Part shown: one piece after another, positions 1,805 to 48,089 of the stretch
Layout: the number at the start of each line of letters is the position of its first letter
How positions within the stretch are numbered: position 1 is the stretch's first letter
Source of the DNA: Natrinema salsiterrestre
GTDB lineage: Archaea > Halobacteriota > Halobacteria > Halobacteriales > Natrialbaceae
NCBI RefSeq assembly: GCF_029502005.1
Contig: NZ_JAMQOT010000004.1
Span: 124,001 to 188,000, forward strand
DNA: 64,000 nt
Direction: 5' to 3'
The notes under the pieces: model-generated
Database searches by the model: none
Told to the model about the DNA's origin: nothing
Seen by the model: only the letters and a program-made list of their open reading frames with translations
Program-made: the position numbers and the translations under genes

Positions 1805-2551
1805 TCAGTGACCCGCCGCGAGCGTCTCGAGCGAGTCGTCTTCCGTCACGAACGTCGTCGCGAGGCTCGCTTCGGCCCGCCGAAGGCGGTAGGAGAGCGT
1901 CGACCGCGGAACGTTCAGTTCGTCCGCGAGCGCGGAGAGATCGATCCGTCGGGGCGTCTCGTAGTACCCGTGTTCGACGGCCGCCCGCAGCGCGTCCCGT
2001 TGTTCGGCCGGCAGCGCGTCGTCGGACTCGGGGCGGGTCCGGTCAGGATCGAGATCGGTCAGCCGCAGCATCTCCATGCCCGCACACTCGCCGACCTCGT
2101 CGCCGAGCGCGTCGAAGAAGTCGTGGATCGGCGCGTCGCTCCCGAGGACGATCCGCCAGCGGTACCGCCGACCTTCCCGGTAGGTCTCGAACAGCAGCCC
2201 CTCGCCGAGGTACTCGAGCGCGAGATGGGGAACCGACGTACAGACGTCCGTCCGGTCCCAGTAGGTGTAGACGACGAGCTCGTCGCTCGAGCGGTCGAGG
2301 ACCTGCGTCTCGCAGTCGGCACCGCAATCGTTCCTGACCAGACAGTCCGCACAGTAGGAAGGTTCCCGATAGGCGGCCTCGAGCGCCTCGACCCCCTCCG
2401 CGGAGCCGGTCGCGTGATCGACGCGCCAGAGGCTCTCCGGCGTCACGTGACACGACAGCGACCGAACCGTCGTGTCCGGATGCGCCTCGAGGGCGTCCGC
2501 GACCGGATTCGTTCCGGGGTCGTACTCGAGGGCGAAGACGAACTCTCTCAT
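1805..2551 (-). CDS. HTH-10 (bacterio-opsin activator type) transcriptional regulator, probably metal-responsive
   Basis: A 248-residue DNA-binding protein. The C-terminal 55 residues form the HTH-10 domain typical of haloarchaeal Bat-like regulators (ending in SALADELNVPRSTLSYRLRRAE). The N-terminal two thirds form the variable sensor region and contain a cysteine cluster (SYCADCLVRNDCGADC, about residues 84-99) that could bind a metal ion. ATG at 2551 was chosen over an upstream in-frame start at 2578 because MREFVFALEYDP is the usual beginning of this family. It precedes the heavy-metal ATPase on the same strand, so it probably controls that pump; this is inference from position and the cysteines. 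An inverted repeat lies 70-90 bases upstream. Confidence 0.85.
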   Translation of the reverse strand: MREFVFALEYDPGTNPVADALEAHPDTTVRSLSCHVTPESLWRVDHATGSAEGVEALEAAYREPSYCADCLVRNDCGADCETQVLDRSSDELVVYTYWDRTDVCTSVPHLALEYLGEGLLFETYREGRRYRWRIVLGSDAPIHDFFDALGDEVGECAGMEMLRLTDLDPDRTRPESDDALPAEQRDALRAAVEHGYYETPRRIDLSALADELNVPRSTLSYRLRRAEASLATTFVTEDDSLETLAAGH

Positions 2552-2620
2552 AGTGAGTGCATGGGGCCGACGTGACAAATGGTTTCCCGCTCAGCAGACT
2601 CGGCGCCGAATTAACCTCAA

Positions 2621-2640: not shown

Positions 2641-2651
2641 ATATAATAATA
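2639..2651 (+). promoter_or_regulatory. TATA-like promoter of the first leader RNA/zinc-ribbon unit
   Basis: The run AGATATAATAATA is the only strong TATA-like sequence in the gap. It lies 63-75 bases before the conserved RNA block. The second copy of the unit has a TATA-like sequence (AATTATAAG) at almost the same distance, which supports the assignment. Confidence 0.5.
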
Positions 2652-2713
2652 CGTGTGAACGAAATCAAAGCGGAGGCCGCGTCTCAAGCGGTGGGGGCGG
2701 TAGCGGAACGAAC

Positions 2714-2838
2714 GCCCCGGGTGATGGCACACCCGAGACTGGCTTCCAGACCCGTGAGAGTTCAGGAAGCATGACGCAGTACATTCCATCGGGACATAAA
2801 CGTCCCACACGACAGTCGAATCACCCGCCACAGTCACC
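2714..2838 (+). ncRNA. Structured leader RNA, copy 1 (three conserved hairpins)
   Basis: This stretch aligns end to end with 39591-39714. Hairpin 1: CGGGTG (2718-2723) pairs with CACCCG (2730-2735); the loop is 6 bases here and 7 in the other copy. Hairpin 2: GCTTCC (2742-2747) pairs with GGAAGC (2765-2770). Hairpin 3: GGGAC (2791-2795) pairs with GTCCC (2802-2806) around ATAAAC. Stems are kept while loops vary in length and sequence, which argues for RNA rather than protein coding. It begins about 65 bases after a TATA-like promoter and ends about 50 bases before a zinc-ribbon gene, so it is probably the 5' leader of that gene or an independent small RNA. The strand is inferred from promoter and gene direction. 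I do not recognise it as a known RNA family. Confidence 0.6.
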
Positions 2839-2885
2839 TTCAGTACCGATTTCCCAACCGAGACGGCTCGCGGACCGTGGTCGCG

Positions 2886-3050
2886 ATGCGGCGTGATCGA
2901 TCGAGGTCCGAGGTCGAGTCCTCGAACCCCGTATGCCCGCGTTGTGGCGATCCCGTCACGTTCGTCACCGCCGTCGGACCCCAGACCGGTACCGCCAGTC
3001 CCTGCGGCTGTTCGGTCTCGCCCGGGTTGATCGAGTGCGAGAACGACTGA
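2886..3050 (+). CDS. Small zinc-ribbon protein, 54 residues (copy 1)
   Basis: ATG at 2886 to TGA at 3050. The protein has CPRCGDPV at residues 17-24 and PCGCS at 39-43, two CxxC/CxC pairs suited to binding one zinc ion, with a near-invariant spacer (GPQTGTASPCGCS). The gene at 39760-39924 encodes a protein of the same length whose C-terminal 36 residues match at most positions. Tiny zinc-finger proteins are common in haloarchaea, but I cannot assign a role. The start is not certain; residues 1-16 are poorly conserved between copies. A structured leader lies upstream in both copies. Confidence 0.65.
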   Translation: MRRDRSRSEVESSNPVCPRCGDPVTFVTAVGPQTGTASPCGCSVSPGLIECEND

Positions 3051-32836: not shown

Positions 32837-32910
32837 AGCCAGGGGTGGGATTTGAACCCACGAAGTCTCGATTACAAGTCGAGTGCATGAACCGCCCATG
32901 CTCCCCTGGC
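32837..32910 (-). tRNA. tRNA-Thr (anticodon UGU)
   Basis: Acceptor GCCAGGG pairs with CCCTGGC, with U as discriminator, as expected for archaeal tRNA-Thr. D-arm GCAT...ATGC, anticodon stem CTCGA/TCGAG with loop CTTGTAA giving anticodon TGT, variable loop ACTTC, T-arm GTGGG-TTCAAAT-CCCAC. No CCA encoded, no intron. It starts only 12 bases after the stop of the acetyltransferase gene on the same strand, so it may be co-transcribed with it. Confidence 0.96.
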
Positions 32911-39333: not shown

Positions 39334-39590
39334 GAGTATACGTTACTGGCGGCCAGCGCGTATAACTGCTCCGTCGCGTCGCAGAAACTGAATCGGGGGA
39401 GAGACCGTCTCGAACCCGCACACAGCCGCACCGGTCACTCGGAGTCGCTCGGGAACGTCAATGGCTCGAGCAGTCGAGGGCAATCGGACTCGAGCCTCCG
39501 TCGAAAATCCCAATTTTCATCGGTAATTATAAGTTGGGACAGGTTGGAGATTAAATCGGAAGCGGACCTCACAGAGGGCTGCATCGAAAT
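39334..39590. other. Upstream region of the second leader RNA
   Basis: No gene seen. A TATA-like AATTATAAG at 39525-39533 lies 58-66 bases before the conserved RNA block, matching the spacing at the first copy. Confidence 0.45.
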
Positions 39591-39714
39591 GCCCCGGGTG
39601 CTGGAACCACCCGAGGCCTGCTTCCAAATCCCGAACAGGGATTGCAAGCATGATTCCATACATACTACCGGGATATAAACGTCCCGCACGACAACCGGCT
39701 CACCTGCCACAACC
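39591..39714 (+). ncRNA. Structured leader RNA, copy 2
   Basis: Counterpart of 2714-2838. Hairpin 1: CGGGTG (39595-39600) with CACCCG (39608-39613), loop of 7. Hairpin 2: TGCTT (39619-39623) with AAGCA (39646-39650), enclosing a second perfect stem AATCCC (39627-39632) with GGGATT (39638-39643). Hairpin 3: GGGAT (39670-39674) with GTCCC (39681-39685) around ATAAAC, extended by a C-G pair. Relative to copy 1 there are single-base insertions in the first two loops, which would break any reading frame but keep all stems. It ends about 45 bases before the zinc-ribbon gene. Confidence 0.6.
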
Positions 39715-39759: not shown

Positions 39760-39924
39760 ATGAAGGGCGACGTCGGCGCGAGTCCCGGGCGGGACTCTTC
39801 GCCGCTCCCCGACTGTCCCAGCTGCGGCGATCCCGTCAGCTTCGTCACCGTCACCGGTCCCCACACCGGCTCGGCCAGTCCCTGCGGCTGCTCCGTCCCG
39901 CCCGGCCTGCTCGAGCGAGACTAG
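39760..39924 (+). CDS. Small zinc-ribbon protein, 54 residues (copy 2)
   Basis: ATG at 39760 to TAG at 39924. CPSCGDPV at 19-26 and PCGCS at 41-45, with the shared spacer FVTVTGPHTGSAS. Length equals that of the copy at 2886-3050 and the region from the first Cys is closely similar, while the N-terminal 18 residues differ. An upstream minicistron ATG (39746-39763) ends in TGA overlapping this start codon, so translation might be coupled to it. Function unknown; a nucleic-acid or protein-binding zinc ribbon is likely. Confidence 0.65.
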   Translation: MKGDVGASPGRDSSPLPDCPSCGDPVSFVTVTGPHTGSASPCGCSVPPGLLERD

Positions 39925-40175: not shown

Positions 40176-40427
40176 CTATGCGTTGTGGTCGAGCCAGTCA
40201 CAAAACGCTTCGAAGTCCCGTGCACCTGCGCTGTCAGCGATATCACGGAGCGTTCCTGTTCGAAGTTCGTCGTGAAGCGGAACCGTTACCTGCCGACGAT
40301 CGTCTTCGTTCGTTGGGTGTTCGTAATACAGGTGGGCGTGGTCACCGGTCGTCCGACGCCATTCGAATCCACCAACGTTGACTAGCACTTTCACGACCTC
40401 TTTGCCGGAAAACGTGCGCCGCCCCAT
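40176..40427 (-). CDS. hicA: HicA-family toxin
   Basis: An 83-residue mRNA interferase-like protein with the dsRBD-like HicA fold. The start GRRTFSGKEVVKVLVNVGGF, the active-site region TTGDHAHLYYEHP with the catalytic His, and VTVPLHDELRTGTLRDIADS are characteristic. It follows hicB by 2 bases on the same strand. In this family the antitoxin HicB neutralises HicA; both together form a stress-linked type II module. Confidence 0.93.
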   Translation of the reverse strand: MGRRTFSGKEVVKVLVNVGGFEWRRTTGDHAHLYYEHPTNEDDRRQVTVPLHDELRTGTLRDIADSAGARDFEAFCDWLDHNA

Positions 40428-40429
40428 CC

Positions 40430-40699
40430 CTATTCGAGGACGTCTGGCGGGTCTCGATCACCAGTCGTGTTCTCCGCGGGATCGATACCCAGGTTACGGA
40501 GTTCTGCGTCGGTAGGTTCCCGACCAGTATCCCCGTTGTGCAATGCAACTGCTTCGTCGAGGTTGTCGAGTGCAGCGCCTCGAGAGTCGCCCTGTGTCGT
40601 GACGCCCGTTTCGACGTCGGTAGCGATCCACCAGTCCTCTTCCCGCCAGAGACGGATCTCTCCGTCGTGAACGCTCCCGTCACTCGTCGAACTGGCCAT
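40430..40699 (-). CDS. hicB: HicB-family antitoxin
   Basis: An 89-residue partner of HicA. The HicB partial RNase H-like fold is seen in IRLWREEDWWIATDVETGV and TTQGDSRGAALDNLDEAVAL. No separate DNA-binding domain is visible at the C-terminus, so autoregulation may need the complex or another factor. It is the first gene of the pair (antitoxin first). A TATA-like TTTATACG about 25 bases upstream of the ATG indicates a leaderless transcript. Confidence 0.92.
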   Translation of the reverse strand: MASSTSDGSVHDGEIRLWREEDWWIATDVETGVTTQGDSRGAALDNLDEAVALHNGDTGREPTDAELRNLGIDPAENTTGDRDPPDVLE

Positions 40700-40815
40700 T
40701 GTATTCGAACGTTGTCCGACGATTCGTATAAATATTCGGCTCAGCGACTGGAACGAGGAGACGTGCTTCTCGTCCCGGTTCTACAGTCGTTGGCTGAGAT
40801 ACTTCCGGAGCGTGC

Positions 40816-48005: not shown

Positions 48006-48089
48006 CGGTGGGGATGGGATTTGAACCCATGAGGCTTGACAGCCACCTGCTCTCAAGGCAGGCGCGTTGGGCCGCTCTGCCACCCCACC
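48006..48089 (-). tRNA. tRNA-Ser (anticodon UGA)
   Basis: Acceptor GGTGGGG pairs with CCCCACC, discriminator G as expected for serine. Anticodon stem CCTGC/GCAGG with loop CTTGAGA, anticodon TGA. The long variable arm (class II) is TGGCTGTCAAGCCTC-like, and the T-arm is ATGGG-TTCAAAT-CCCAT. No CCA encoded, no intron. Confidence 0.95.

Follow-up and report, generated by a model that had tools for sequence, protein, structure and literature searches.

What is the block that occurs twice, at 2714-2838 and 39591-39714, in a 64,000-nucleotide stretch of the Natrinema salsiterrestre genome (the window), each time shortly before a small zinc-ribbon gene? A sequence-only reading had proposed a functional structured RNA with covarying stems, standing free between a TATA-like sequence and the zinc-ribbon gene, with no named archaeal RNA family known to share its structure. 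We examined both copies, their homologues in the genome and genus, and haloarchaeal genomes at large.

The repeated block is the 3' portion of an mRNA leader

Comparison of the two copies confirmed that the blocks can be aligned and that the stems lie where they had been placed: the stem of hairpin C is kept around a loop of 6 nt in copy 1 and 7 nt in copy 2, and hairpin D, the second of the proposed hairpins, pairs through different bases in each (Table 1). The stems of the third, hairpin E, are likewise present, but they lie within the coding sequence of a short open reading frame (ORF). The distances to the TATA-like sequence (about 65 bases) and to the zinc-ribbon gene (about 50 bases) proved correct. 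The interval itself was real but truncated the element, beginning within hairpin B and omitting the 5' strand of a long-range helix, P1. Through this choice of interval P1 and B were lost, and the description as three local hairpins (C, D and E) was incomplete, overlooking both P1 and the alternative pairing.

The block is the 3' portion of a 5' mRNA leader that extends from about 2672 to the first codons of a gene. When the window was scanned with the leader model, only two copies emerged, one at 2672-2773 and one at 39558-39652, each on the plus strand. Folding of 2700-2840, which does not include the P1 5' strand, returned modest z-scores of -1.6 and -2.6; the true support for the element is comparative and does not come from these values.

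Table 1. Parts of the two leader copies and of the genes that follow them (positions in the window).
Feature	Position	Strand	Basis or remark
TATA-like promoter box, copy 1	2642..2651	+	sequence; P1 5' strand starts 30 nt past box start
P1 5' strand, copy 1 (GGAGGCC..GTCTC)	2672..2685	+	
Hairpin B, copy 1 (GGGGCG/CGCCCC)	2694..2718	+	sequence; self-versus-cross z -7.5
Hairpin C, copy 1 (CGGGTG-ATGGCA-CACCCG)	2718..2735	+	genus-wide invariant stem, highly variable loop
Switch strand, copy 1 (GAGACTGGCTTCC)	2735..2747	+	partner is P1 5' strand (2672-2685) or D 3' arm (2765-2770)
Hairpin D, copy 1 (GCTTCC...GGAAGC)	2742..2770	+	3' arm adjoins ATG
ORF1, copy 1 (MTQYIPSGHKRPTRQ...), 41 codons, coupling cistron	2771..2896	+	start ATG 2771
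Hairpin E, copy 1 (GGGAC-ATAAAC-GTCCC), within ORF1	2790..2806	+	
ORF2, copy 1, CPxCG zinc-ribbon small protein	2886..3050	+	start overlaps ORF1 stop by 11 nt
TATA box, copy 2 (TTATAAGT)	39527..39534	+	
P1 5' strand, copy 2 (GGAAGCGGACCTC)	39558..39570	+	
Hairpin B, copy 2	39576..39594	+	sequence
Hairpin C, copy 2 (CGGGTG-CTGGAAC-CACCCG)	39595..39613	+	
Switch strand, copy 2 (GAGGCCTGCTTCC)	39613..39625	+	
Hairpin D, copy 2 (TGCTT/AAGCA + AATCCC/GGGATT)	39619..39650	+	outer pair includes A of ATG
ORF1, copy 2 (MIPYILPGYKRPARQ...), 37 codons	39650..39763	+	start ATG 39650
Hairpin E, copy 2 (CGGGAT-ATAAAC-GTCCCG)	39669..39686	+	
ORF2, copy 2, zinc-ribbon protein	39760..39924	+	ATGA overlap with ORF1 stop

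Among the neighbouring genes, a Bat-type HTH_10 regulator with an HVO_2928_N domain (1805-2578, minus strand) is divergent from copy 1. This neighbour and the Brz literature prompted a search for an association with such regulators, which was rejected: HTH_10 genes, of which the genome has 49 matches, are not near the other copies. Directly after copy 2 lies a HicA/HicB-like pair (about 40178-40428 and 40432-40700, minus strand), named by resemblance only. The window also contains two tRNA genes (32837-32910 and 48006-48089, both minus strand). Only tRNAs exceeded the Rfam 15 gathering threshold in the window, and a permissive Rfam 15 scan of four leader loci (L186, L194, L196 and L009) returned nothing relevant, so that the absence of a named family for this structure held at both settings.

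A single architecture recurs in the genome and genus

The block recurs far above chance: blastn detected 25 significant copies in the genome and a covariance model 28 (E <= 5e-18). These copies are dispersed over unrelated intergenic sites, and a search around them for a common neighbour gene or a common flanking sequence found none. Copy number in congeners ranges from 0 to 29, with many copies occupying orthologous sites in related species. Tandem copies about 475-494 bp apart were seen at three loci (L094, L106 and L119), the second copy looking decayed in L094 and L106.

Alignment of the genomic copies with those of relatives established one architecture in nearly all Natrinema-type copies examined (n=88). 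In 77 of 87 copies, the distance from a TATA box to the P1 5' strand is 30-31 nt. This strand, of the GGAAGCC..GTCTC type, closes on a GAGAC..GGCTTCC strand located past hairpins B and C. The GGCTTCC strand has an alternative partner, GGAAGC(C), immediately 5' of the ATG, with which it forms hairpin D. Hairpin E (CGGGAT-ATAAAC-GTCCCG) follows 16-20 nt past the ATG, inside the coding sequence.

Hairpin C combines an invariant 5-bp stem with a loop of strictly 6 or 7 nt that takes 63 different sequences in 87 copies; the loop also differs between near-identical leaders of the SWIM type. The idea that it serves as a guide pairing elsewhere in its own transcript was discarded, there being no excess of such matches (51 observed vs 56 expected).

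Two exclusive pairings of one strand covary

We used an alignment-free covariation test in which the duplex formed by a leader's own arms is compared with duplexes of arms swapped between sequences, co-evolving arms giving the better self pairing. Across 87 copies, both alternative pairings were demonstrated (P1, z -6.8; D, z -8.8), as were B (z -7.5) and E (z -6.2), while mismatched arms used as negative controls gave z near 0; a local hairpin at the 5' end, A, covaried only weakly (z -2.2). The shuffles leave some relatedness among the sequences, and control for kinship relies on clustering. Keeping a single sequence from each of 42 clusters at 85% identity gave -7.9 for P1, -7.0 for D and -3.8 for E; at 80% identity (18 clusters), the values were -5.2, -3.1 and -2.9. 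Class-wide, a further 54 distant leaders gave -16.0 for P1 and -8.5 for D against -0.1 for the control, and the 27 dissimilar leaders among them still gave -11.2 and -5.9. The model that found these distant leaders did not include D; P1 was included in the models used, which limits the P1 test. The arm before the AUG and the P1 5' arm are also more alike within a leader than between leaders (z 4.2).

Pair counts in the alignment agree in finding 98.8% of cells paired, with 40 double changes against 8.4 in shuffles; when the count was slid, the paired share fell to 50% or less. The paired cells comprise 154 G-U pairs vs 10 A-C, from which it follows that the RNA is read from the plus strand. 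Together with the hundreds of homologues that a covariance-model search recovered from haloarchaeal genomes, where few would have spoken against the proposal, covariation far above shuffles bears out a functional structured RNA with covarying stems. What did not stand is its free-standing position 50 bases before the gene, as the element comprises an mRNA leader and the start of an ORF.

Among minimum-energy folds of the 87 copies, 51 contained P1 without D, 26 contained D without P1 and 9 contained the two together, indicating that the two states are close in energy in these copies. As isolated duplexes, class-wide means were about -22.6 kcal/mol for P1 vs about -9 kcal/mol for D; with P1 so much stabler, the closed state described below may need help or be transient. 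The lower stem of D is imperfect in some copies, and hairpin E, considered class-wide, is clear in many subfamilies and weak in others. Predicted folding energies disregard molar KCl.

The AUG opens a proposed coupling cistron before the zinc ribbon

In intact Natrinema-type copies, the AUG opens an ORF of 33-64 codons (MIPYILPGYKRPAR...), and a CPxCG zinc ribbon follows nearly every copy of the Natrinema type. A zinc-ribbon ORF2 could be recognised in 83 copies; in every one of them the ORF1 stop and the ORF2 start overlap (at -8, -4 or -11 nt), the two ORFs standing in either relative frame, whereas the other two frames gave no overlap (0 in the 83 copies). This coupling geometry is firmly established, and from it translation of ORF1 is inferred. 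The peptide itself is another matter. In comparable pairs, pN/pS is 1.0 for the variable tail of ORF1 vs 0.49 for ORF2 and 0.27 for the zinc ribbon. In codons 7-13, where the peptide is seemingly conserved, third positions vary no more than the rest, and amino-acid changes in the hairpin E codons preserve pairing (G to R with P to L, R to H, Y to H). A functional conserved peptide is thereby ruled out. ORF1 appears to be maintained as a reading frame for ribosomes and conserved at the RNA level, since the overlap is universal, the tail drifts at a pN/pS of 1.0 and the E codons follow the pairing; it exemplifies ORFs that stay open to ribosomes with a peptide that is free to drift. No Pfam or NCBIfam match above cut-off names the ORF2 family. 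A third CPxCG ORF (MTGPR...KRCPDCGA) was seen after ORF2 in six copies (L011, L013, L015, L016, L017 and L020).

The leader is widespread in haloarchaea and precedes unrelated genes

Matches in other families, ahead of different genes, had already come from the first model. A leader-only model, constructed with 20 diverse members, then documented the element in 141 of the 292 haloarchaeal genomes searched and in 62 of 77 genera. Single genomes hold up to about 28-34 copies. In a sample of 197 genomes of the phylum, 13 carried it, all from one order, and the same model detected none outside haloarchaea. E-values from these home-made models are rough. Named carriers include Natrinema, Natrialba, Halopiger, Haladaptatus and plasmids of Halobacterium salinarum, several matches being on plasmids. 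The annotated CDS start coincides exactly with the leader AUG in Haladaptatus (a SWIM protein) and in halophilic archaeon DL31. The model scores plasmid pNRC200 of H. salinarum NRC-1 only weakly (15.7 bits, E 0.048), but the leader, hairpin E and the VNG_RS11530 AUG can be made out there and show compensatory variation between relatives. A 44-nt coding stretch containing hairpin E is identical between Halobacterium plasmids (L324, 42494-42540; L325, which is pNRC200, 2001-2044) while the preceding leader differs, indicating strong nucleotide-level constraint on the first codons.

At least 24 unrelated gene families lie downstream of the leader, many of them zinc-finger-like: CPxCG ribbons, SWIM zinc fingers, PadR, a TFIIB-repeat protein, Tat-signal proteins, and a zinc-type protein followed by a RAMP-like gene. 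Such diversity implies no single ligand. A strict paired Cys/His motif was present at 20 of 55 leader loci vs 6 of 158 flanking ORFs, and the true zinc-type share is probably higher, because this motif misses SWIM-type fingers. RAMP-like genes (weak PF03787) occur on haloarchaeal chromosomes and plasmids, several with the leader and a small zinc-type protein upstream (L253, L255, L262, L265, L266, L272, L279, L321-L323, L325 on NRC-1 pNRC200, L326 and L327). Their Pfam RAMPs matches (E 0.007-0.017) are below cut-off, and neither PADLOC nor PDB sequences gave support; a possible relation of these operons to HRAMP (PMC8730458) is a lead only.

Proposed mechanism and alternative explanations

The best-supported reading, and in our judgement a likely one although expression, probing and reporter data are lacking, is that of a cis-acting 5' mRNA leader operating as a two-state translational switch at the start codon, because D sits against the AUG and P1 is the alternative pairing. 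Transcription would probably start at, or right beside, the 5' strand of P1. In the open state, this strand and the switch strand would be paired with B and C enclosed, leaving the AUG-adjoining arm free so that ribosomes can start. In the closed state, with the P1 5' strand unavailable, the switch strand and the arm directly before the AUG would form D, hindering initiation. Hairpin E probably belongs to the initiation site. Among Natrinema relatives, ribosomes would read the short ORF, its peptide irrelevant, stop on the zinc-ribbon start and restart there; in other genera, the AUG would often be the start of the regulated gene itself. The assignment of P1 as open and D as closed, and a regulated exchange between them in cells, are inferred, as is the masking of the start site by D, which rests on its position. 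A first guess at the trigger would be that the B/C domain binds some shared protein or ligand, with zinc status or the encoded zinc-binding proteins as candidates.

The main rival is a constitutive translation-initiation element, which we regard as unlikely: the fold (P1, C, the AUG flank and E) would bring ribosomes to mRNAs lacking a Shine-Dalgarno sequence or position them there, and D would be a folding intermediate without a regulatory role. The constant placement of the AUG and of the following hairpin E fits this account, as do P1 being by far the stronger helix and a study (PMC8241225) indicating that haloarchaeal initiation does not require a Shine-Dalgarno sequence. A purely constitutive element would not need D, however, and D covaries independently, even in leaders found by a model without it; many of the gene families with the leader also look like regulated accessory genes. 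Autoregulation, a sub-case of the switch in which the encoded zinc-binding proteins would favour the closed state by binding the leader of their own mRNA, has a small though appreciable chance of being correct. It draws on the zinc ribbon that follows nearly all Natrinema-type copies and on the SWIM and other zinc-type proteins behind many distant leaders, with the motif enrichment given above; yet unrelated folds (SWIM, ribbons, PadR and Tat-signal proteins) would need a common RNA target, and the leader serves no fewer than 24 families.

Two further accounts were weighed. Inverted repeats near the promoter could be transcription factor targets at the DNA level, and hairpin C is indeed a clean palindrome near the TATA box; the preponderance of G-U over A-C mismatches, the single strand with two partners about 50 nt and about 20 nt away, and the preservation of E within an ORF despite amino-acid changes leave this account almost no credence. 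We consider it very improbable that the element is a mobile or viral repeat bringing its own promoter and leader, although its many dispersed copies, their variable number in congeners, the tandem loci and the plasmid matches would suit one: flanks and neighbours are not common between copies, and related species share orthologous sites. A viral origin was rejected, as a SWIM-type leader has no phage match and pattern scans of IMG/VR yielded 28 contigs with only two weak model matches.

Returning to the translational switch, a bolder version, possible but doubtful, would make it a haloarchaea-native ligand-sensing riboswitch class, possibly for zinc or another common signal, controlling dozens of paralogous zinc-protein genes per genome together with RAMP-like (possibly HRAMP, CRISPR-derived) operons such as that on H. 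salinarum NRC-1 pNRC200. To our knowledge, few cis-regulatory RNAs are known in archaea. If the element gates start codons, it would constitute a large native translational control system in archaea, linking many uncharacterised zinc micro-proteins and RAMP-like operons through one shared signal; it also offers candidates in genetically tractable strains.

Comparison with known systems

The element is apparently an undescribed class of bistable leader. We found no description of it in literature on Brz/Brb, haloarchaeal zinc micro-proteins, ribosomal leaders and a synthetic haloarchaeal riboswitch; the search was incomplete and an earlier description is not excluded.

Among the closest known systems is the Brz-Brb operon of Halobacterium salinarum (PMC2253796, PMC3184054), in which a small CPxCG zinc-finger gene is co-transcribed with a small basic ORF and the zinc-finger genes adjoin Bat-type regulators. 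Here, too, an Arg-rich ORF1 and a CPxCG ribbon ORF2 overlap as in an operon, co-transcription being inferred. Unlike Brz-Brb, the gene order is reversed, with the basic ORF first; the ORF1 peptide is not a selected basic protein; and a Bat/HTH_10 neighbour is absent except at window copy 1. The text consulted on Brz-Brb mentions no structured leader. Archaeal ribosomal-protein leaders, such as the Halobacteria S15 leader (PMC7247131), are likewise structured cis-regulatory leaders in haloarchaea, but the genes downstream here do not encode ribosomal proteins and Rfam gives no match. ORF2 is of the same broad type as the CPxCG zinc-finger micro-proteins of Haloferax volcanii (PMC11241148, PMC10716476), although those studies treat proteins and not a leader, and ORF2 falls in no Pfam or NCBIfam family above cut-off.

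The element also resembles, as a general kind, bacterial riboswitches and bistable translational leaders, which likewise place in a 5' leader two exclusive helices with a common strand, one of them beside the start codon. The element lies upstream of the start it would regulate, the AUG standing at the 3' end of D in aligned copies and CDS starts coinciding in the two named records, and it has two exclusive conserved pairings, one of which masks an expression signal as inferred from position. It differs from the bacterial leaders in that the closing hairpin covers the bases right before the AUG, where no Shine-Dalgarno is evident, in that a conserved hairpin continues within the ORF, and in that, in the home genus, the leader drives a coupling cistron free of selection.
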